Shown here: positions 47,697-62,214 of the stretch, in pieces
Numbering within the stretch: the stretch's first letter is position 1
Layout: every line of letters starts with the position of its first letter
Source: Chloroflexota bacterium
Lineage (GTDB): Bacteria > Chloroflexota > Limnocylindria > Limnocylindrales > CSP1-4
NCBI GenBank assembly: GCA_016191345.1
Contig: JACPOU010000014.1
Location: 1-64,000, forward strand
DNA length: 64,000 bases
Direction of reading: 5' to 3'
Position numbers and translations under genes: made by a program
The notes under the pieces: model-generated
The model's database searches: none
The model's input: the letters and a program-made list of their open reading frames with translations, nothing else
What the model was told of the DNA's origin: nothing

Positions 47697-48212
47697 GTGG
47701 CCGAGCACGTCTCGCTCGTCGTCAACGGTATTCCCCGCGAGGTGGACGTGGAGCCGAGGCGGCTCCTCGTCGAGCTCATCCGGGAGGACCTCGACCTCAC
47801 CGGCACCCACATCGCCTGCGACACGTCGCAGTGCGGCGCCTGCACCGTCCACGTCGACGGGCGGGCCGTGAAGTCCTGCACGATGCTCGCCGTCCAGGCG
47901 GACGGGGCGCAGGTCACCACGATCGAGGGGATGGCCACGCCGGAGGGGCTCCACCCGCTGCAGGCCGCGTTCTGGGAGCACCACGGGCTCCAGTGCGGCT
48001 TCTGCACGCCCGGGATGATCATGGCCGCCGCGGACCTGCTGGCCCGGACCACCGACCCCACCGACGACGAGATCCGCCACGCGATCGAGGGCAACTTCTG
48101 TCGCTGCACGGGCTACCAGAACATCGTCACCGCGATCCGCGCTGCCGCCGCCACGGTGCGCGCCGGCGTGCCGGCCCCCAGCGGCGCCGTCCAGCAGGGG
48201 AGCGCGTCATGA
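47697..48212 (+). CDS. Molybdenum hydroxylase (form II CODH-like) small [2Fe-2S] subunit
   Basis: [53 protein letters not shown] start. Confidence 0.92.
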
Positions 48213-50611
48213 CCACGGACATGCTCGGCAAGCGCGTCAAGCGCGTCGAGGACCAGCGCCTCATCACCGGCAAGGGCCGTTACGTCGACGACATCAAGCT
48301 CCAGTCGATGGCGTACTGCGCCATCCTCCGCAGCCCGTATGCCCACGCCCGCATCCGGTCGATCGACACGAGCGGGGCGAAGGCGATGCCCGGCGTCCTC
48401 GACGTCATGACCGGCGCGGACGTCCCGTACAACCCCCTCCCGATGGCCTGGCCCGCGGGCGGCTCGGCGGGCATCCAGAACAACGTCAACACGCCCCGCG
48501 CGCTCGCCACGGACGACGTGAAATGGACCGGCGAGGGTGTCGCCGCGGTCATCGCCGAGACGCCCGAGCAGGCCTTCGACGCGATGGAGGCGATCGTCGT
48601 CGACTGGGAGCCGCTGCCCGCCGTCGTCGATGCCGAGGCGGCCATCCAGCCCGGTGCGCCGCAGCTCCACGAGAACGCGCCGAACAACGTCGTCTTCGAG
48701 TGGTCGGTCGGCGACAAGGCCGGCACCGACGCCGCGGTCGATGCGGCCGAGGTCGTCGTCCGGCAGCGGATCGTCAACCAGCGCCTCATCCCGAACCCGA
48801 TGGAGACCCGCGGCGACATCGGGCTCTACAACCCCGGCACGGACGAGTACACGATCTGGATGTCCAGCCAGACGCCGCACATCCAGCGGATCCTCCTGGC
48901 GATCTTCGTGATGGGCATCCCGGAGCACAAGCTCCGCTGCATCAGCCCGGACGTCGGCGGCGCGTTCGGGACGAAGATCTTCTGCTACGCGGACTACGTC
49001 GTCGTGCTCCTCGCCTCGAAGCGGATCGGCGGCCGGCCGGTCAAATGGGTCGAGAGCCGTCGCGAGAACTACCAGGCCACGATCCACGGCCGGGACCACA
49101 TCACCTACCTCGAGATCGCCGGCAGGCGCGACGGCGAGATCACGGGCCTCCGGGTCAGGACCCTGGCCAACCTCGGCGGCCGGCTCTCGACGATCGGCCC
49201 CGGCATCCCCACGACGCTCTACGCCCGTGTCCTGACCGGCTGCTACCGGATCCCGAACGTCCACGCGGAGGTGACCGGCGTCTACACGCACACCGTGTTC
49301 TTGGATGCCTATCGCGGCGCCGGCCGGCCGGAGGCGCCCTACGTCATCGAGCGGGCGATGGACCTCTTCGCGGCCGAGATCGGCATGGATCCGGCCGCGA
49401 TCCGGCGGAAGAACTTCATCGCCCCGGACCAGTTCCCGTACGAGAACCCCTCGGGGCTCGGGACGGCGTCCGGCGGGGCGAAGATCTACATCGACTCCGG
49501 CAACTACGAGCCGGCCCTCAACCGGGCGCTCGTCATGTCGGGCTACCTCGACGCCGAGGCGGCGAAGGCCGAGGCGCGCACGCGCGGCAAGTACCTCGGC
49601 TTCGGGCTCAGCTCCTACCTCGAGGTCTGCGGCGTCGCGCCGTCCAAGTGGATCGGCGCCGTCGGCGAGGGCTGGGGCGCCGCGATGTGGGAATCGGCGA
49701 ACATCAAGGTCCACCTGACGGGCAAGGTCGTCGTCACGATGGGCACCCAGCCGCAGGGCCAGGGCCACGAGACGACGTACGCCCAGGTCGTCGGCCACGA
49801 GCTCGGCATCCCGATCGAGGACATCGTCGTCCAGCACTCGGACACGCAGGGGACGCCGTTCGGCTACGGCTCGTACGGCAGCCGGACCTCGTCGGTCGGG
49901 AGCACCGCCGCGATCAAGGCCGCCGGGAAGATCCGCGACAAGGCCCGGCGCTACGCCGCCCACATGCTCGAGGCCTCGGTCGAGGATATCGAGATCGATG
50001 GCGCGGAGTACCGGGTCAAGGGCTCCCCGGACAAGAAGAAGACGTTCCAGGAGATCGCGTTCGCGCTCGACCTCGCCTTCGATGCCCCCGAGGGCATGGA
50101 GCCGTACCTCGACGAGACGGCCTACTATGACACCCCGAACTGCACCTGGCCGTTCGGGACGCACGTCGCCGTCGTCGAGATCGACGAGGCGACCGGCTTC
50201 ACGGACCTCGTGAAGTACGTCGCGGTGGACGACGTGGGCAACAAGATCAACCCGATGATCGTCGACGGCCAGCTCCACGGCGGCATCGTCCAGGGCGTCG
50301 GCCAGGCGCTCTGGGAAGGTGCCGTCTACGCGGACGACGGCCAGCTCCTCACCGGATCCATGCTCGACTACGCCGTCCCGCGCGCCTCCTGGCTGCCCCA
50401 GCTGGAGCTCGACGAGACGGTGACGCCCTCGCCGGTCAACCCGCTCGGCGTCAAGGGCGTCGGCGAGGCCGGCGCCATCGCGAGCACCGCCGCTGTCGCC
50501 AACGCCGTCGGCGACGCCCTCCGCCCGATCGGCATCCGCCACCTCGACATGCCGCTCACGCCCCAGCGGGTGTGGAAGGCGATCCAGGCCGCGAAGGGAG
50601 CCCAGGCATGA
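48209..50611 (+). CDS. Molybdenum hydroxylase (form II CoxL-like) large subunit
   Basis: Xanthine dehydrogenase-family large subunit with AYRGAGR active-site motif (49307-49327). Confidence 0.92.
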
Positions 50612-51784: not shown

Positions 51785-52687
51785 ATGACGACGCCCCTGA
51801 GCTCCACCGACGCGATCACCGAGGCCTTCCGCGAGCGCGGCTACATCGCCGATCGCTCGATCGCGACCGCGGTATTCCTTGGTCTGGAGCTGGGACGGCC
51901 GCTGCTCCTCGAGGGCGAGGCCGGCGTCGGCAAGACGGAGCTCGCGAAGGTCCTCGCCAGCTCCCTCGGCACGCGCCTCATCCGGCTCCAGTGCTACGAG
52001 GGCCTGGACGTCAACACCGCGGTCTACGAGTGGAACTACCCGCGCCAGATGCTCGAGATCCGGCTCCTCGAGGCCCGCGGCCAGGCGGACCACGCGACCG
52101 CCCACGACATCTTCGGCCCGGAGTTCCTCATCAAGCGGCCGCTCCTCCAGGCCCTCGAGGCGGGCGCGGACGGCGAGCCGCCGGTCCTCCTCATCGACGA
52201 GATCGACCGGGCGGACGAGGAATTCGAGGCCTATCTCCTCGAGATCCTGTCCGACTTCCAGGTCACCGTGCCGGAAATCGGGACGATCAAGGCGGAGCGT
52301 CCGCCCCGCGTGATCCTGACCTCCAACCGCACACGCGAGGTCCACGACGCCCTGAAGCGTCGCTGCCTCTACCACTGGATCGACTACCCGTCGGCGGCCA
52401 AGGAGTTCGAGATCGTCCAGGCCCGCCTGCCGCAGGCGTCGGAGCAGCTCGCCCAAGCCGTCGTCGCGTTCGTCCACCGGCTCCGCGAGGCCGACCTCAC
52501 GAAGGTGCCCGGGATCGCCGAGACGCTCGACTGGGCCGCCGCGCTGATGGCCCTGGGCGCGACCGAGCTGACGCCGGCTGTCGTCGACGAGACCCTCGGC
52601 GTGGTCCTCAAGTACGAGGAGGACATCCGGCAGATCCGCGGCGAGACCGTGAAGAGCTACCTCGCCGAGGCGCCGGCCGGCCGCTGA
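51785..52687 (+). CDS. MoxR-family AAA+ ATPase (CoxD-like)
   Basis: LLEGEAGVGKTELAKVLA Walker A, VLLIDEIDRADEEFEAYLLEILSD Walker B. Confidence 0.9.
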   Translation: MTTPLSSTDAITEAFRERGYIADRSIATAVFLGLELGRPLLLEGEAGVGKTELAKVLASSLGTRLIRLQCYEGLDVNTAVYEWNYPRQMLEIRLLEARGQADHATAHDIFGPEFLIKRPLLQALEAGADGEPPVLLIDEIDRADEEFEAYLLEILSDFQVTVPEIGTIKAERPPRVILTSNRTREVHDALKRRCLYHWIDYPSAAKEFEIVQARLPQASEQLAQAVVAFVHRLREADLTKVPGIAETLDWAAALMALGATELTPAVVDETLGVVLKYEEDIRQIRGETVKSYLAEAPAGR

Positions 52688-52716
52688 GGCCGGCCCCGCG
52701 GGCAGCGGACCTGGCA

Positions 52717-54093
52717 ATGACCGACCCGGCGATCGTCCCGAGCGGGCCGCGCGAGGCCGTCGACGGCCACCGTCTCCTCGCGCGCGCCGTCGGGTTCGGT
52801 CGCGAGCTCCGCAGGGCCGGCCTCGGCGTGGACCTCGGGGCGGAGATCGACTTCACCCGGGCCCTCAGCGTCATCGACATCGGCGACCGCGAGCAGGTCC
52901 GGGCGGCCGGTGCGGCGGTCTTCACCCGGCGCCGCGACGACCGGCCCGTCTACGACCGGGTCTTCGATCGCTACTGGCGCCGCCGCTCCCTCCAGCCGAA
53001 CCTCGAGGCACCGGGCTCGGAGCAGCACCCCGAATCCGCCCCCTCGGACGAGGGCGTGCCGCAGGACGCCGCGATGCCCGGCGACGAGCGCTCCGAGCTG
53101 CCCGAGGACCGGGCGGGGATGCCGATCCCGACGGACGGCGACGTCGAAGCGGACGAGGCGGCCCCCGACATCGTCACGATCTCGCCGGACGCCTACAGCC
53201 GCTCGGATACGCTCCGCCATCGCGACTTCGACCGGATGACGGCGCAGGAGCTCCGGGACGCGGAGCGGCTCGTGGACCTCCTCGAGCCGCGTCTGGAGCT
53301 TCGCCGGACGCGCCGCTACGAGCTCCACCGGCACGGGCGGCGTCTCGCGCCGCGGGCGATGTTCCGGCGCAATCTCGCGACGGGCGGCGAGATCATCGAC
53401 TGGGTCTGGCGGCGGCCGGTGAAGCGGCCCCGCCCGCTCGTCGTCCTGTGTGACATCTCGGGATCGATGGAGCGCCACTCGCGGCTGCTCCTGCGCTTCG
53501 TCCAGGCCCTCTCCTCGTCGTCCGCCGTGAAGACGGAGTCGTTCGTGTTCGGAACCCGCCTGACCCGCGTCACGCGGCTGCTCAAGGACCGGAACCGGGA
53601 TCGTGCGCTGGCCCGCGTGGCGGACACCGTGACCGACTGGGCCGGCGGGACCCGGATCGGGGAGTCGTTCCGCGACTTCAACCACCGCTGGGCCCGCCGG
53701 ACGCTCCGGACGAGCGGCGTCGTGATCGTCGTCTCCGACGGCTGGGATCGCGGCGACCCGAAGCTCGTGGAGCAGGAGACGGCCCGCCTCCGCCGCAACT
53801 GCCATCGCCTCGTCTGGCTGAACCCGCTGGCCGGGACGCCCGGCTACCAGCCCCTCGCCGCCGGGATGCGCGCGGCGTACCCGTACATCGACGACTTCCT
53901 GGCGGCGGGCACCGTCGCGAGCCTGGAGCGGCTCGGCGAGATCCTTGCCGGCGGCCGCGCCTCCGACACCCGGCGCGGGAGCGAGGCGGCCGCCCACGTC
54001 GCCCCGAGCCCGGACGCGGCGCGAACCTTTGCCCCGCCGGCCAAGGTCGAGCGCCGGCCGGCCGACCCGTTCGCGGCCCAGCCGCTGCGTTGA
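52717..54093 (+). CDS. VWA domain-containing CoxE-like protein
   Basis: LVVLCDISGSMERHSRLLLRFVQAL MIDAS, TRIGESFRDFNHRWARR. Confidence 0.9.
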   Translation: MTDPAIVPSGPREAVDGHRLLARAVGFGRELRRAGLGVDLGAEIDFTRALSVIDIGDREQVRAAGAAVFTRRRDDRPVYDRVFDRYWRRRSLQPNLEAPGSEQHPESAPSDEGVPQDAAMPGDERSELPEDRAGMPIPTDGDVEADEAAPDIVTISPDAYSRSDTLRHRDFDRMTAQELRDAERLVDLLEPRLELRRTRRYELHRHGRRLAPRAMFRRNLATGGEIIDWVWRRPVKRPRPLVVLCDISGSMERHSRLLLRFVQALSSSSAVKTESFVFGTRLTRVTRLLKDRNRDRALARVADTVTDWAGGTRIGESFRDFNHRWARRTLRTSGVVIVVSDGWDRGDPKLVEQETARLRRNCHRLVWLNPLAGTPGYQPLAAGMRAAYPYIDDFLAAGTVASLERLGEILAGGRASDTRRGSEAAAHVAPSPDAARTFAPPAKVERRPADPFAAQPLR

Positions 54094-54130: not shown

Positions 54131-55246
54131 ATGCGCGACCTTCTCGACACGATCGACGCCTGGCGGGAACAGGGAATGGAGGCGGGGCGCGCCGTCGTTG
54201 TCCGGACGTTCGGGTCGGCGCCGCGGCCGGAAGGCGCGGTGCTCCTCCGCGCGACGGACGGGCGCCTGATGGGCTCGGTGAGCGGCGGCTGCGTGGAGGG
54301 CGCGGCGGCGGAGGAGATCGAGCGGGCCCGTGCCACCGGCAACGCCCGGGTGATCCGCTACGGCATCAGCGACGAGGAGGCCTGGGGCGTCGGGCTCGCC
54401 TGCGGCGGGACCATCGACGTGCTCATGGAGCCCCACGTCCGGCCCGAGGTCGTCGAGGCGGCGCGCCGGTCCGCCGGCACGCGCGGGGAATCCGTCGCCA
54501 TCGCGATCCCGCTCCCCGCCGACGCGCCACCCGCCGAGGCTGGCGCGCATCCGCCGGGGGTTGGCGCCCCGCCGGAGCCGCCGATCGTCGTCGTGGCCGG
54601 CCACGGCATCACGTCCGGCTCCACGGGGACGGATGCCGGCGATGCGGAGCTGGTCGTGGCCGCCGGCCAGCTGCTCGAGGAGGGCCGTTCCCGGATCGTC
54701 GAGACCGCCGGCCGTGCCTTCTTCGTCGAGGCCTATCCGGTGCGCCCGCGGCTCGTCGTCGTCGGCGCGGTGGAGGTGGCCCGGTCGCTCGTCCGCTACG
54801 CCCGGGAGCTGGGCTACGAGACCGCCGTCATCGATGCCCGGGCTGCCTTCGCGACCCGCGAGCGCATCCCCGATGCGGATCGCCTCGAGGTCGCCTGGCC
54901 CGACGAGGCATTCGCGACCCTCGAGGTCGGGCCGAACGACGCCGTCGCGATCCTGTCCCACGACCCGAAGTTCGACGAGCCGGCGATCGTGGAGGCCGTG
55001 CGGCGGGGCTGCCGCTATGTCGGCGCGGTCGGGTCGCGGAAGACGCAGGCGAATCGGCGGGCACGTTTGGCCGAGAGCGGCCTGACCACCGCGGAGATCG
55101 CCACGGTCCACGGGCCCATCGGCCTGGACCTCGGCGGCCGGGAACCGGCCGAGACGGCCCTCGCGATCATGGCCGAGATCGTCGCCGAGCGGCGCGGAGG
55201 GACCGGGTCGCCGATGCGCCAGCGCATGGCCGCCGCGGTCGGGTGA
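54131..55246 (+). CDS. XdhC/CoxF family maturation protein
   Basis: GSAPRPEGAVLLRATDGRLMGSVSGGCVEG; GCRYVGAVGSRKTQANRRARL; GLDLGGREPAETALAIMAEIVA. Confidence 0.92.
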   Translation: MRDLLDTIDAWREQGMEAGRAVVVRTFGSAPRPEGAVLLRATDGRLMGSVSGGCVEGAAAEEIERARATGNARVIRYGISDEEAWGVGLACGGTIDVLMEPHVRPEVVEAARRSAGTRGESVAIAIPLPADAPPAEAGAHPPGVGAPPEPPIVVVAGHGITSGSTGTDAGDAELVVAAGQLLEEGRSRIVETAGRAFFVEAYPVRPRLVVVGAVEVARSLVRYARELGYETAVIDARAAFATRERIPDADRLEVAWPDEAFATLEVGPNDAVAILSHDPKFDEPAIVEAVRRGCRYVGAVGSRKTQANRRARLAESGLTTAEIATVHGPIGLDLGGREPAETALAIMAEIVAERRGGTGSPMRQRMAAAVG

Positions 55247-55277: not shown

Positions 55278-56705
55278 GTGAGCCCGCGCGTCACGGCGAT
55301 CGTCCTCGCGGCAGGCGCCGGTACCCGATTTGGCGGGGCCAAGCTCCTTGCACGAATCGACGGACGCCCGGTCCTCCAGCACGTCCTCGACGCCCTGGTC
55401 GCCGGCGGGATCGACGATCCGGTCGTGGTGCTCGGCAACGACGCGCTGGCGCTCGAGGCCGCCATCGACTGGCGCGTCGCCCGCCGGATCCGGAACCCGG
55501 AGCCGGGTCGCGGCCTCGCCAGCTCGCTCCATCTCGGCTGGGCAGCGGCGATGGGTGACCCCGTGCGCCGCCCCGACGCCGCGATCGTCGCGCTCGGCGA
55601 CCAGCCGCTCCTCGACCCTGATGTCCTGCGGGCCCTCGTCACGGCGCCGCTGGACCCTGCCCGCCCGATCCTCGTCGCCCACCACGCCGACGGCGCGAGG
55701 AACCCGGTCCGGATCGAGGCCGCGGCGGCCGACCTCGTCGCCGCGGCGAGTGGCGACCGCGGGCTGGGTCCGCTTCTCGACAGCCAGCCGGACCGGGTCC
55801 GCCGCCTCGACGTCGAGAGCCGGAACCCGGACATCGACCGGCGGGGCGACCTCGTCGCGATCCTCGAGGCGCGGTGGCGCGCCCGGGTCGAGGCGAACGC
55901 GGCCCAGGTCGAGCGATTCCGGGAGGCCCCGGACGGCGCCGACTTCTACGCGACGGTGAGCCGGACCTTCGTCGGGGATCCGGGGCGCTCCGACGATCCC
56001 GTCCTCGCGGCCCTGCTGGACCTCGCTCGCCCCGGCGACACGTGGCTGGACGTCGGCGCCGGCGCTGGCCGCTATGCCCTCCCGATCGCTCGCCGGGTCC
56101 GGGCCGTGATGGCCGTCGATCCGTCGAACTCGATGCTCGACGCTCTCCGCGCGGCGGCATTCGAGCATCGGATCGAGAACGTTCAGGCCCTGCATGGGCG
56201 CTGGCCACCATCAGCGGAACTGCGGGCTTCGCTCGGCCCCGACCCCGTCGCGGAGGTGGCCCTGGTCGCCCATGTCGGGTACGACGTTGCCGCGATCGGC
56301 CCGTTCGTCGAGGCCCTGGAACGCGCCGCTGCGCGCGGCTGCGTTGCCGTCCTCATGCATGAGAGCCCCGCGGCGATCGCCGCCCCGTTCTGGCCGATCG
56401 TTCATGGCGAGGATCGGGAGCCGCTGCCGGCGCTTCCGGCCCTCGTGGAGCTCCTCGAGGCACGGGGCGCGAGGCCGGTCGTGGCCCACGTCCGCGGCGA
56501 GCGTCGGCGATGGGCAGACCGTGAGGAACTTCTGGCCCTCCTGCGCCGCCAGCTCTGGGTCGTCCCGGGAACCGGCCCGGATCGCCGCCTGGCTGGGGCC
56601 ATGACCCAACTCGTCGGGCGTGATTCCGACGGCTCACTGACGATCCGGGGCACGCCGCCCCCGGATATCGGAATCGTCACGTGGAGTGGCCGCGAATCCC
56701 GTTGA
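55278..56705 (+). CDS. MobA/MocA-like nucleotidyltransferase fused to class I SAM methyltransferase
   Basis: N-term VLAAGAGTRFGGAKLLARIDGRPVLQHVL ... ALGDQPLLDPDVLRALV; C-term DTWLDVGAGAGRYALPIARRVRAVMAVDPSNSMLDALR; one continuous ORF, GTG start. Confidence 0.88.
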   Translation: MSPRVTAIVLAAGAGTRFGGAKLLARIDGRPVLQHVLDALVAGGIDDPVVVLGNDALALEAAIDWRVARRIRNPEPGRGLASSLHLGWAAAMGDPVRRPDAAIVALGDQPLLDPDVLRALVTAPLDPARPILVAHHADGARNPVRIEAAAADLVAAASGDRGLGPLLDSQPDRVRRLDVESRNPDIDRRGDLVAILEARWRARVEANAAQVERFREAPDGADFYATVSRTFVGDPGRSDDPVLAALLDLARPGDTWLDVGAGAGRYALPIARRVRAVMAVDPSNSMLDALRAAAFEHRIENVQALHGRWPPSAELRASLGPDPVAEVALVAHVGYDVAAIGPFVEALERAAARGCVAVLMHESPAAIAAPFWPIVHGEDREPLPALPALVELLEARGARPVVAHVRGERRRWADREELLALLRRQLWVVPGTGPDRRLAGAMTQLVGRDSDGSLTIRGTPPPDIGIVTWSGRESR

Positions 56706-56873: not shown

Positions 56874-57743
56874 ATGATCCCGCCTGCATTCGACTACGTG
56901 CGACCCGCGGACCTGGGCGAAGCGCTCCGGATCCTCAAGGAACGTGAGGGAGACGCAAAGGTCCTCTCAGGTGGCTACAGCCTCCTGCCGCTCATGAAGC
57001 TCCGCCTGGCGCAGCCGGCGCTGCTCGTGGACATCCAGGACGTTGGCGGAATCGATGGGATCGACCGCACGGGGAATGTATTCCGGATCGGGGGCCGCGC
57101 AACGCACCGTCGGATCCTGGAGGACGCATCCCTTGGCTCCGTGCTCCCGATCATGCGTGACGTGGCCGCGGGCATCGGCGACCCGCAGATCCGCAACTGG
57201 GGAACCATCGGCGGCTCGGTCGCTCACGCAGACCCGGCGGCCGACTGGCCGGCGGTCCTCCAGGCCCTCCACGCCTCGATCGTGGTGCAGAGCGTGGCCG
57301 GCGAGCGCGTCGTTCCCGCGCGGGGCTTCTTCATCGACGCGTTCCAGACCGGCATCGAGCCGGACGAGATCCTGACCGAGATCCGGATCCCGGTCCCGGC
57401 TGGGCGGAGCGGAGGTTCGTACCAGAAATTGGAGCGTCGGGCCGGTGACTTCTCGACGGTCGGGGCCGCCGTCCAGCTGACGCTCGGGTCTGACGGCCGC
57501 GTCAGCGCAATCGGCATCGGCCTGACCGCGGTCGGGGACGCGGCGTTTGCGGCCACTGAGGCCGAGGGCGTGCTCCACGGCGCCGAGCCGGGTGATGAGG
57601 CGATCCGAGGAGCGGCTGCGGCGGCGTCCCGGCAGAGCCGTCCCGGGACGGACAGCCATGGCCCGGCCGAGTACAAGCTGGCGATGGTGACCGAGATGAC
57701 TGTCCGCGCGCTGCGCGCGGCCGTGGCCCGGGCGCAGGGGTAG
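56874..57743 (+). CDS. coxM: Form I CO dehydrogenase medium (FAD) subunit
   Basis: [52 protein letters not shown]; adjacent to form I coxL. Confidence 0.92.
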
Positions 57744-57751
57744 GGAGCAAG

Positions 57752-58279
57752 ATGACGACACAGCACGTCAGGGTCACCGTCAACGGCACCATCCGGGAGG
57801 CGGACGTGGAGCCACGCCTCCTCCTCGTGCACCTGTTGCGTGAGAACTTCGGGCTGACCGGCACCCACGTCGGTTGCGATACGAGCAACTGTGGGGCCTG
57901 CACGGTGCACGTCAACGGCATGAGCGCCAAGAGCTGCACGATGCTTGCCGTCCAGGCAGATGGCGCCGAGGTCAGGACGATCGAGGGGATGGCGGACGGG
58001 GCCACGCTCCACCCGCTGCAGCAGGCGTTCTGGGACCAGCACGGCCTCCAGTGCGGGTTCTGTACCCCGGGCATGATCATGCAGTCTGCCTGGCTCCTGG
58101 AGCAGAACCCTCAGCCGACCGAAGACGAGATTCGACTGGGGATCAGCGGCAACCTCTGCCGCTGCACGGGTTACGTGAACATTGTCAAGGCGATCCAGCA
58201 GGCATCCGGTCAACTCCCCGGCGGGGAGTCGGCTCCGGTAGAGGCTGCTGCGATCGTTGACACAGCACCGGCCAGCTGA
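57752..58279 (+). CDS. coxS: Form I CO dehydrogenase small [2Fe-2S] subunit
   Basis: [55 protein letters not shown]. Confidence 0.93.
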
Positions 58280-58290
58280 GGGACCACGAG

Positions 58291-60654
58291 ATGGCGACGG
58301 AGCTCCAGACCACCCCCGAAGTCGGGGGCATGGGCCACTCGGTCAAGCGCAAGGAAGACCCGCGCATGATCCGTGGGCAGGGCGAGTACATCGAGGACGT
58401 CAATCTGCCCGGCCAGCTCTGGATGGACATTGTCCGGAGCCCCTACGCCCACGCGACCATCAAGTCCATCGACGCCTCGGAGGCCCTCAAGATCCCAGGG
58501 GTCCTGGCCGTCATCACCGGGGCGGACCTCGAGAAGGCCGGCCTCCACTGGATGCCGACTCTGGCCGGCGACAAGCAGATGGTCCTGCCCACGACGACGG
58601 TCATGTACCAGGCCCAGGAGGTCGCGGCGGTCGTGGCCACGGATCGCTACGCCGCGGCCGACGGGATCGCCGCCGTCTACGTGGACTACGAGCCCCTGCC
58701 CGTCATCGTGGATCCCCACAAGGCGATGGAGAAGGACGCGTTCGTCCTCCGCCCCGATCGCGCCCCGGACAAGCAGACCAACCACATCTGGCACTGGGAA
58801 TCGGGCGACCGGGCGGCCACCGACGCGGCCCTCGAGAGCGCCGAGGTCCGCATCTCCGAGGACATCTACATCCCCCGAATCCATGTCGCCTCGATCGAGA
58901 CATGCGGCTGCGTCGCCGATTGGGACGCGGTCCGCGGCCAGCTGACGCTGCACATGACGTCGCAGGCGCCGCATGCCATCCGGACCGTGCTCGCCCTCGT
59001 GTCCGGCCTCCCCGAGCAGAACATCCGGGTGAAGACGCACGACATCGGTGGCGGCTTCGGCGGCAAGGTGCCGGTGTACCCGGGCTATGTTCTGGCGGTC
59101 GTCGCCTCCTTGACCGTCGGCAAGCCGGTCAAGTGGATCGAGGATCGCTCGGAGAACCTCCAGGCCGACAGCTTCGCCCGTGATTACCACATCCATGCCG
59201 AGATGTCGGCCACGAAGGCCGGGAAGATCACCGGCCTCAAGGTCAAGACGCTCGCCGACCATGGCTACTCGGACGCTGCCGCCGACCCCTCCAAGTACCC
59301 AGCCGGCCTCTTCAACGTGATCACCGGCTCGTACGACTTTCCGAACGCGTTCGTCGAGGTCGACGGTGTCTACACCAACAAGCCACCCGGGGGCGTGGCC
59401 TACCGCTGCTCGTTTCGGGTGACCGAGGCCGTCCATGCCATCGAGCGCATGGTCGACATCCTCGCCCACGACATCGGGATGGATCCGGCCGAGCTCCGGA
59501 TGAAGAACTTCATCCAGCCGGAGCAGTTCCCGTACACGACGCCAACGGGCTGGGAGTACGACTCTGGAAACTATCCGGCCGCGCTCCAGAAGGCCATGGA
59601 CATGATCGACTACGCCGGGTTGCGCCGGGAGCAGGTCGAGAAGCGCGAGCGCGGGGAACTCATGGGCATCGGCATCAGCAGCTTCACCGAGATCGTCGGG
59701 GCGGGGCCCTCCAAGGACTTCGACATCATCGGCATCAAGATGTTCGATTCGTGCGAGATCCGGGTCCATCCGACCGGCAAGGTCATCGCCCGTATCGGCG
59801 TCCAGAGCCAGGGCCAGGGCCACGAGACGACGTTCGCCCAGATCATCGCCGAGGAACTCGGCTTCCCGGCCGCCGACGTCAAGATCGAGTACGGCGATAC
59901 CGACACCGCGCCCTACGGGCTCGGGACGTACGCGTCGCGATCCACGCCGGTTGCCGGGGCGGCGACGGCCATGGCCTCCCGGAAGATCAAGGACAAGGCT
60001 CGCAAGATCGCGGCCCATCTGCTGGAGGCTGCCGAGGACGACCTGGAGTGGACGAACGGCAAGTTCACGGTGAAGGGCTCGCCGGATCGCTTCAAGACGA
60101 TCCAGGAGATCGCCTTCGCGGCCTACACGAATCATCCCACCGGGATGGAGGCCGGCCTCGAGGCGGTCGACTACTACGACCCGCCGAACCTGACGTTCCC
60201 GTTCGGGAGCTACATCTGCGTCGTGGACATCGACAAGGCGACGGGCCAGGTGACCGTTCGCCGTTTCGTCGCCGTCGACGACTGCGGCAACATCATCAAC
60301 CCCATGATCGTGGACGGGCAGATCCACGGCGGGCTCACGATGGGCTTCGCCCCGTCGCTGCTCGAATCGATCACCTATGACGAGCTCGGCAACAACCAGG
60401 CCGGGACATTCATGGACTACCTCCTCCCGACGGCAGTCGAGACCCCGCGCTGGGAGGTCGCAAAGACGATCACGCCGTCACCGCACCATCCGATCGGTGC
60501 CAAGGGCGTCGGCGAGTCGGCGACCGTCGGCGCGCCCCCGGCGATCGCGAACGCGGTGGTGGATGCGCTCTGGCACCTCGGCGTGCGGAACATCGACATC
60601 CCACTGACCCCGCAGAAGGTCTGGGCGATCCTCCACGAGAAGGGCATCGCCTGA
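58291..60654 (+). CDS. coxL: Form I aerobic carbon monoxide dehydrogenase large subunit
   Basis: VAYRCSFR (AYXCSFR form I signature, 59398-59418), M-S-L gene order. Confidence 0.95.
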   Translation: MATELQTTPEVGGMGHSVKRKEDPRMIRGQGEYIEDVNLPGQLWMDIVRSPYAHATIKSIDASEALKIPGVLAVITGADLEKAGLHWMPTLAGDKQMVLPTTTVMYQAQEVAAVVATDRYAAADGIAAVYVDYEPLPVIVDPHKAMEKDAFVLRPDRAPDKQTNHIWHWESGDRAATDAALESAEVRISEDIYIPRIHVASIETCGCVADWDAVRGQLTLHMTSQAPHAIRTVLALVSGLPEQNIRVKTHDIGGGFGGKVPVYPGYVLAVVASLTVGKPVKWIEDRSENLQADSFARDYHIHAEMSATKAGKITGLKVKTLADHGYSDAAADPSKYPAGLFNVITGSYDFPNAFVEVDGVYTNKPPGGVAYRCSFRVTEAVHAIERMVDILAHDIGMDPAELRMKNFIQPEQFPYTTPTGWEYDSGNYPAALQKAMDMIDYAGLRREQVEKRERGELMGIGISSFTEIVGAGPSKDFDIIGIKMFDSCEIRVHPTGKVIARIGVQSQGQGHETTFAQIIAEELGFPAADVKIEYGDTDTAPYGLGTYASRSTPVAGAATAMASRKIKDKARKIAAHLLEAAEDDLEWTNGKFTVKGSPDRFKTIQEIAFAAYTNHPTGMEAGLEAVDYYDPPNLTFPFGSYICVVDIDKATGQVTVRRFVAVDDCGNIINPMIVDGQIHGGLTMGFAPSLLESITYDELGNNQAGTFMDYLLPTAVETPRWEVAKTITPSPHHPIGAKGVGESATVGAPPAIANAVVDALWHLGVRNIDIPLTPQKVWAILHEKGIA

Positions 60655-61721
60655 TGTCCGGCGGCCGTTCGATCCACGCCCGCGCCGCGGCGCTGGAGGC
60701 GGACGGCCGTGTCTTCGCGTTCGCCACGGTCGTGGCCGTCCGGCGGCCGACGTCCGCCCGGCCGGGAGCGGCGGGGATCATCCATCCCGACGGCACGATC
60801 GAAGGCTGGGTCGGGGGCAGCTGCGCCGAGCCGGTCGTCCTCCGGGAGGCGCTCCGGGCCATGGCTGACGGTCAGCCCCGGCTTCTCCGGCTCTCGAGGG
60901 AGGGCCCCGGGGAGGGCCGCCGTGCCGACGGCGTCGTGGAGCTCGTGATGAGCTGCCATTCGGGAGGGACCCTGGAGATCTACGTGGAGCCGCACCTGCC
61001 AGCCCCGCACCTGTGGGTCGCTGGCACCACACCGATTGCCGGAGCACTCGTCGCGCTCGGCGCGGCGGCCGGCTGGCGAGTCACCGTCTTCGATCCCGAC
61101 GCGGACGCGGACGCGTTCCCGGGCGCCGAGGCAGTCCTCGGGGAGCGCGAGCTCTGCACCCTCGAGTTCGCCACCGCACCCTTCGTGGTGGTCGCAACCC
61201 AGGGTGTCTGGGACGAGGAAGCGACGGCCGCGGCGCTCCGCCGCGACGTGGCCTATGTCGGGCTCATCGCCTCGCCAACGCGCGCCGCCGTGGTGCGCGC
61301 CTGGCTTCGCGACGAAGGCACCCTGCCGGAGGAGCGGGTTGCGGCCCTCCGGGCCCCGGCCGGCATCGACCTGGGAGCGGAGACGGCCGAAGAGGTTGCG
61401 CTGTCGATACTTGCCGAGCTCGTCCAGGTCCGGCGTGGGCGTGCCGGGTTCGTCGCCGCGCCCGGTCCTGCCACGATCGCGGGTCGTCCCGCGTTCAGGG
61501 GTGACCCAGCGGCTCCCATCGTCGGCGACATCGTGCTTGTGGATCCCGTCTGCGGGATGAGGGTCGGCCGGCACGAGGCCCGGCACCTCGCCGAACACGA
61601 CGGCGTCGTCTATGCCTTCTGCGCGATGGTCTGTCGTACTCGCTTCATCCACGATCCGGCCGCCTTCGTGCCGCCTGCCGGATCGCCGATATCATCCGAG
61701 GTCGAACCCCCCGAGGCGTAA
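60654..61721 (+). CDS. XdhC family protein with C-terminal YHS domain
   Basis: GWVGGSCAEPVVLREAL, VAYVGLIASPTRAAVVRAWL, then DPVCGMRVGRHEARHLAEHDGVVYAFCAMVCRTRFIHDPAAFV. Confidence 0.85.
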   Translation: MSGGRSIHARAAALEADGRVFAFATVVAVRRPTSARPGAAGIIHPDGTIEGWVGGSCAEPVVLREALRAMADGQPRLLRLSREGPGEGRRADGVVELVMSCHSGGTLEIYVEPHLPAPHLWVAGTTPIAGALVALGAAAGWRVTVFDPDADADAFPGAEAVLGERELCTLEFATAPFVVVATQGVWDEEATAAALRRDVAYVGLIASPTRAAVVRAWLRDEGTLPEERVAALRAPAGIDLGAETAEEVALSILAELVQVRRGRAGFVAAPGPATIAGRPAFRGDPAAPIVGDIVLVDPVCGMRVGRHEARHLAEHDGVVYAFCAMVCRTRFIHDPAAFVPPAGSPISSEVEPPEA

Positions 61722-61764
61722 GCCGCTGCAGCCGCGGCGGGCGCCCCCGCAACGGAGATCGCTG

Positions 61765-62214
61765 ATGGAGTTCTCGGGCGCCGTCGACATTCCCGCCGCG
61801 CGCGAGCGCGTGTTCGCGTTCGTGACGAATCCCGACAAGGTCGGCCAGTGCGGCCCGGGCGTCGAGTCGATCGAGATCCTCGACCCCACCCACTTCCGGG
61901 CGAAGGCGAAGGTCGGTGTCGGGTTCATCACGGCGAGATTCGTCGTGGACCTCGAGATCACCGAGCAGCAGGCTCCGGACATGGCCGTCATCACGGCCCG
62001 CGGCCAGGCTCCCGGCAGCGCCGTCGACGCCGTTGGCCGGATGGACCTCGTGGAGGGTGCCGAGCCTGGGACGACGACGATGCGCTGGGCGGCCGAGGTG
62101 AGCATCAGCGGCATGATCGCCAGCGTCGGGGCCCGCCTCGTGGAGGGAACCGCCAACAAGATGATCGGCCAGACCTTCGACTGCATCCGGGCGAAGATCG
62201 TCGCCGACAGCTGA
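61765..62214 (+). CDS. coxG: CoxG-like SRPBCC family protein
   Basis: MEFSGAVDIPAARERVFAFVTNPDKVGQCGPGVESIEIL; location in cox cluster. Confidence 0.88.
   Translation: MEFSGAVDIPAARERVFAFVTNPDKVGQCGPGVESIEILDPTHFRAKAKVGVGFITARFVVDLEITEQQAPDMAVITARGQAPGSAVDAVGRMDLVEGAEPGTTTMRWAAEVSISGMIASVGARLVEGTANKMIGQTFDCIRAKIVADS

Follow-up and report, generated by a model that had tools for sequence, protein, structure and literature searches.

Aerobic CO dehydrogenase (CODH) requires the MCD form of its molybdenum cofactor, and its known helper genes come from a few model bacteria. MocA-like proteins are already known in CODH clusters. The accessory genes described for the Oligotropha-type enzyme are coxD, coxE, coxF, and coxG, with no methyltransferase in that description, and CoxG is not required in cofactor assembly (PMC4240915). 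CoxG is reported to be a menaquinone-binding protein that feeds electrons into the quinone pool (PMC13240472, citing Kropp 2025). In Mycobacterium tuberculosis, the gene for the MocA/MobA-like protein Rv0371c lies within the CODH cluster together with MoxR and VWA genes (PMC12657314), a setting like that of the nucleotidyltransferase described below. Removal of atmospheric CO has been demonstrated for Chloroflexota, among other organisms; the operon of Thermogemmatispora sp. T81 has the order coxMSLIG, and the main text of that report names no methyltransferase (PMC6776052).

Here we describe a methyltransferase that occurs in the cox operons of two distant Chloroflexota families and is, in one of them, repeatedly fused to a cofactor-finishing enzyme, which makes it a concrete candidate for a step that has so far been missed.

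The fused reading frame and its two domains

Within the window (the whole stretch of 64,000 nucleotides that was analysed), positions 55278-56705 of the plus strand form a single open frame of 475 amino acids without an internal stop, beginning with GTG 31 bp past the xdhC stop. Pfam placed NTP_transf_3 (PF12804) at residues 7-172 (E 7.5e-29) and Methyltransf_25 (PF13649) at residues 257-307 (E 4e-7, above its cut-off). The initial annotation, which had described an uninterrupted 475-residue frame joining a MocA-like domain to a class I methyltransferase, was therefore right in both its coordinates and its domain calls. AlphaFold2 yielded a confident two-domain model of the full protein (pLDDT 89, pTM 0.88), in which the last helix of the nucleotidyltransferase and the first helix of the methyltransferase together make up the joining helix. 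The frame and its neighbours are as follows.

48197-50611 (+): form II-type coxL with the AYRGAGR motif (TIGR02416, 735 bits, under the cut-off of 991)
51785-52687 (+): coxD-type MoxR AAA ATPase, a conserved neighbour (PF07728, E 1.7e-12; NF047784, E 1e-83)
52693-54093 (+): coxE-type VWA protein, a conserved neighbour (VWA_CoxE PF05762, E 4.6e-60, scanned in a longer frame)
54131-55246 (+): xdhC-type maturation factor directly upstream of the fusion, a conserved neighbour (PF13478, E 8.9e-40; PF02625, E 1.3e-18)
55278-55838 (+): N-terminal domain of the MocA-type CTP:molybdopterin cytidylyltransferase kind, residues 1-187 (PF12804, TIGR03310, fold, and motifs)
55842-55919 (+): joining segment, one continuous predicted helix, residues 189-214 (AlphaFold2 model, pTM 0.88)
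55854-56702 (+): C-terminal class I SAM-dependent methyltransferase domain (PF13649, motif I, AlphaFold2/Foldseek)
56874-57743 (+): coxM, FAD subunit of the form I enzyme, a conserved neighbour (open reading frame)
57752-58279 (+): coxS, 2Fe-2S subunit of the form I enzyme, a conserved neighbour (open reading frame)
58291-60654 (+): form I coxL with the AYRCSFR motif, large subunit of aerobic CODH (TIGR02416, 1222 bits, over the cut-off of 991)
60654-61721 (+): second XdhC protein, with a YHS-like domain at its C terminus (PF13478, E 1.9e-29; PF04945, E 4.6e-7, just below the cut-off)
61762-62214 (+): coxG, the partner common to the methyltransferase loci of two families (COXG PF06240, E 2.8e-29; methyltransferase-coxG adjacency)

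Two motifs separate MocA (LAAG, GLxxS) from MobA (LAGG, GPLAG) and reflect nucleotide specificity. The nucleotidyltransferase half carries LAAG, GLASS, and GDQP, and the other strong nucleotidyltransferase of the same genome carries LAGG, GGPLVG, and GDMP, the MobA type. Among the 48 nucleotidyltransferases of the family, LAAG is present in 46 and G-L/M/V-x-x-S in 47, and neither LAGG nor GPL[AV]G occurs in any. The half scored 86 bits against the MocA model TIGR03310, whereas MobA models gave no more than 38 bits; since this value lies below the curated equivalog cut-off of 186, we use the label MocA-type rather than MocA. Foldseek returned MocA/MobA-related proteins as its top matches, and the nearest solved chains in both sequence and fold are those of Rv0371c (2we9/2wee) and of Mycobacterium sp. 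JC1 (2waw). The whole N-terminal domain aligns with these proteins and with the E. coli MocA/YgfJ model TIGR03310, with the same motifs and, for 2wee, about 30% identity over about 200 columns (Foldseek). The solved chains are single-domain proteins of 197-199 residues, whereas the window protein continues into the methyltransferase. The motifs, model scores, and nearest solved chains make MCD synthesis the likely activity, and this reading agrees with the dependence of CODH on MCD. The half is probably the MCD synthase of the operon, and of an ordinary kind.

Composites of Moco nucleotidyltransferases are already present in family libraries, as the MobA/MobB model illustrates. Both the bifunctional MobA/MobB family (NF011056) and the 359-residue DVU_1551 family (NF045665) in NCBIfam combine a nucleotidyltransferase of the Moco type with an additional domain or region, but they align only to the nucleotidyltransferase part of the window protein (residues 4-118 and 6-197, respectively), and neither matches the methyltransferase half. 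The open-licence literature yielded no useful papers on DVU_1551/DVU_1556, and neither a published MocA-methyltransferase composite nor a recurrent cox-operon methyltransferase was found there.

The methyltransferase half has the features of a class I Rossmann fold, including the SAM motif LDVGAGAGR and AVDPS with an acidic residue after strand 2. Motif I (WLDVGAGAGRYALP) was kept in all 31 aligned relatives. This alignment contained 26 invariant columns, some within the SAM motif and others elsewhere in the domain, such as Q18, R23, D30, Y32, F39, W117, P118, D144, Q233, and W277 (domain numbering). Modelled alone, the domain reached a pLDDT of 86, and Foldseek matched it to the class I methyltransferases YcgJ (1xxl) and TTHA0223 (2yqz), structures listed without an assigned function. 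The Rossmann fold and SAM motif are held in common, at 13-20% identity and TM-scores of 0.5-0.6; unlike these two proteins, the methyltransferase family has a long helix at the N terminus as well as two conserved segments, RWP and FWPIVHGE. No NCBIfam model scored above its cut-off, the matches being confined to the SAM motif region, and no named methyltransferase family or solved homologue with a known substrate fitted past that motif. The dN/dS ratios were 0.16-0.35 for the nucleotidyltransferase half and 0.15-0.31 for the methyltransferase half, indicating that purifying selection has kept both. Together with the motif conservation, these values rule out a degenerate methyltransferase, and from motifs, fold, and selection the half is predicted to be an intact SAM-binding enzyme.

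Distribution and gene neighbourhoods

A search of the same genus produced matches in all 15 genomes, window included, and in 13 of them one open match ran across the junction, the relatives being 51-67% identical. The picture was mixed across 101 genomes of the same family: reading the frames at full-length methyltransferase loci, we counted 31 fused, 13 with split but adjacent nucleotidyltransferase and methyltransferase genes, and 4 unlinked. The fused forms occur in 12 genera (g1, g4, g6, g7, g8, g12, g15, g18, g19, g21, g23, and g25), and the fusion is also present in the public records L039 and L040. It is widespread within one Chloroflexota family, whose members are uncultured. The window comes from a draft metagenome assembly (64 contigs, 6.7% contamination), for which a mis-assembly or missed frameshift merging two genes might be suspected, and the initial annotation had raised the doubt of a collapsed junction. 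The same fusion recurs in independently assembled genomes of 12 genera, with identities mostly of 48-67%, and selection acts on both halves, which settles this doubt; an artefact is effectively ruled out, with a negligible chance of being correct. The same annotation had proposed that its view would fall if the fusion were already widespread and characterised. Widespread it is, in one family, but no characterisation was found in the open-licence literature.

Among the plasmid matches listed, only nucleotidyltransferase-sized ones appeared, and no record covered 80% of the query. A pattern scan retrieved two Acidobacteria loci, in which the match is limited to some 40 residues at the SAM motif. 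In the tree of the methyltransferase half, about six changes between fused and not-fused states were counted, at least four of them forced by well-supported branches, and we therefore conclude that fusion and fission have occurred repeatedly within a conserved gene pair.

In the window, the gene order is form II-like coxS-L-M, coxD, coxE, xdhC, the fusion, form I coxM-S-L, xdhC-YHS, and coxG. The form II-type coxL (48197-50611) and the form I coxL (58291-60654) thus share one gene run, with a single accessory set between them. Compared with the Oligotropha-type genes (PMC4240915), coxD, coxE, XdhC-type, and coxG homologues are present in a conserved order, and the operon has a methyltransferase in addition. 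Searches with the cox proteins of the window (tblastn) gave the general order for the home family (f1) as (form II-type coxS-L-M)-coxD-coxE-xdhC-nucleotidyltransferase/methyltransferase, and then coxG, either immediately or after form I coxM-S-L-xdhC/YHS. The xdhC gene adjoins in nearly all of these loci. Where no form I coxMSL intervenes, the gap between methyltransferase and coxG is 13-218 bp, and an unlinked methyltransferase without a nucleotidyltransferase (L081) has a coxG homologue 37 bp downstream.

Within the home family, the methyltransferase and CoxL occur together in 44 genomes, the methyltransferase only in 16, CoxL only in 5, and neither in 36 (Fisher p 1e-9, uncorrected for kinship). 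Some genomes bearing the fusion lack CoxL at E 1e-150, and Mo-hydroxylase large subunits were found in all 12 checked. Operons comprising coxS, coxM, coxD, coxE, xdhC, the fused gene, and coxG were seen with no nearby coxL match in three genomes (L088 and L175 in G010, L087 and L176 in G002, and L104 in G014), whose Mo-hydroxylase large subunits are situated elsewhere in the genome; in G010, about 28 kb around the operon contained coxS, coxM, and the other operon genes and gave no coxL match. The initial annotation had placed the fusion in a CODH maturation cluster. CODH-type genes do surround it, but the accessory set also occurs in genomes with other Mo hydroxylases and no CODH large subunit, so that "CODH-type/Mo-hydroxylase accessory operon" is the more accurate description.

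Comparison of phylum-wide methyltransferase and CoxL searches brought out a second family, f21, whose methyltransferase homologues lie some 2 kb away from form I CoxL. Eight loci were read there, some ended by contig ends, with the order coxM-S-L(I)-xdhC/YHS-coxG-methyltransferase; four more genomes have the same methyltransferase-coxL spacing by coordinates, and six further loci keep the coxG-methyltransferase pair, with coxL absent from the stretch read. None of the f21 cox operons read contained the nucleotidyltransferase. The methyltransferases of f21 form one clade (support 100/100), well separated from that of the home family. Cox operons of two lineages, f1 and f21, therefore carry the enzyme in different gene orders. 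The f21 order coxM-S-L-XdhC-coxG is the same as that of coxMSLIG in T81, which suggests that f21 is a Ktedonobacteria-like family of the T81 lineage; in f21 the methyltransferase follows coxG, whereas the main text on T81 mentions none (PMC6776052).

The link to CODH has limits. We inspected 40 loci of the methyltransferase family in other Chloroflexota families (20 at E 1e-52 to 1e-117 and 20 at E 1e-36 to 1e-57), with flanks up to 7-9 kb where contigs allowed, and found no cox, coxG, or nucleotidyltransferase neighbours. Their neighbours differ (for example ThrRS, GyrB, AlkZ-like, and PAC2). Ten neighbour proteins from six loci were unrelated to each other, and no conserved neighbour naming a substrate emerged. 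High-scoring methyltransferases also occur in some genomes with no strong CoxL match. In one such genome (G431), two stand-alone copies lie in tandem (L138, 8440-10073). The forty stand-alone loci rule out a strict tie to CODH: the enzyme is not restricted to CODH genomes, its family is broader than the CODH association, and, since most members stand alone, it has a CODH-independent role. The association in the home family and f21 arose either twice, or once with many losses.

Proposed role of the methyltransferase

On balance, we favour the reading that the fused gene encodes a two-enzyme accessory protein of a Mo-hydroxylase (CODH-type) operon, whose methyltransferase acts on a component of the system other than MCD. 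The N-terminal domain would transfer CMP from CTP to molybdopterin, giving MCD for CODH and its relatives, as family, motifs, and structural neighbours suggest. The C-terminal domain would be a SAM-binding methyltransferase of a Chloroflexota-wide family found in the cox operons of two families. Candidate targets would include the Mo hydroxylase itself, one of its maturation partners, and the electron outlet through CoxG and quinone. A target other than MCD seems most likely because the coxG association, and not the nucleotidyltransferase association, is common to both lineages, and the methyltransferase-coxG link persists where the nucleotidyltransferase is missing. The fusion would tie two products of the operon together in synthesis and in place; it appears dispensable for the activity of either half, given the frequent split neighbours and the several changes between fused and split states.

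The strongest rival, which we regard as unlikely but serious, is a fusion of neighbours with no shared pathway, in which a general methyltransferase (of a small molecule, RNA, or protein) is merely co-expressed and its fusion is a neutral accident. Such an enzyme would account for the many family members that stand alone beside differing neighbours, for the free switching between fused and split states, and for the high-scoring relatives in genomes with no strong CoxL match. It accords poorly with a cox/coxG link found in two distant families under different gene orders, with the retention of the nucleotidyltransferase or coxG pairing across many genera, and with the co-occurrence of the methyltransferase and CoxL in the home family. 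The initial annotation had instead suggested that the fused protein could modify the cofactor or a maturation intermediate; it is mainly the fusion itself that speaks for this. In its sharper form, the methyltransferase would act on the pterin cofactor or an intermediate, in sequence with the nucleotidyltransferase on the same molecule; in its favour are the covalent attachment to an MCD synthase, predicted to run through one helix, and the xdhC adjoining in nearly all home-family loci. We consider it improbable. The f21 relatives sit in cox operons with no nucleotidyltransferase, most relatives have no adjoining Moco gene, and methylation has no place in the published description of how the CODH cluster is assembled (PMC4240915). 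Cofactor modification is not favoured because the methyltransferase stays with coxG where the nucleotidyltransferase is absent, and, as originally worded, that proposal is not supported, given a clade beside coxG and a family whose members mostly lie away from cox genes. Since the methyltransferase is often a separate gene, free of the nucleotidyltransferase, or stand-alone, methylation of another component or of an unrelated substrate fits at least as well.

A further rival assigns the methyltransferase to the electron outlet, namely CoxG or its bound quinone, where it would tune electron delivery from CODH to the respiratory chain. It deserves consideration because CoxG is dispensable for cofactor assembly (PMC4240915) and, is described as linking CODH with the quinone pool through menaquinone binding (PMC13240472, citing Kropp 2025); moreover, coxG is the sole neighbour kept in both families, also where no nucleotidyltransferase is present. 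UbiE, UbiG, and MenG are, however, no closer to this enzyme than other class I methyltransferases, the fusion partner is a cofactor enzyme and not CoxG, and gene adjacency names no substrate. As a specific assignment, we judge it slightly less probable still than pterin methylation.

Returning to the favoured reading of an accessory protein that methylates a component other than MCD, the methyltransferase is probably a broader Chloroflexota enzyme that was recruited to the CODH operons of two lineages and became joined to the adjacent gene on repeated occasions. The finding suggests that these molybdenum enzymes have a helper that has escaped notice until now. More tentatively, and with some doubt, the aerobic CODH and related Mo hydroxylases of several Chloroflexota might require SAM-dependent methylation by this enzyme, directed at the enzyme, the cofactor, or the CoxG/quinone outlet. 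Such a step is not known from Oligotropha or mycobacteria, and in one family the methyltransferase performing it would be fused to the MCD synthase.

A minor observation concerns the second XdhC protein of the window, a relative of which also lies directly 3' of form I coxL in the f21 loci. Its YHS end might serve as a carrier of copper, or of some other metal, destined for the CODH site.
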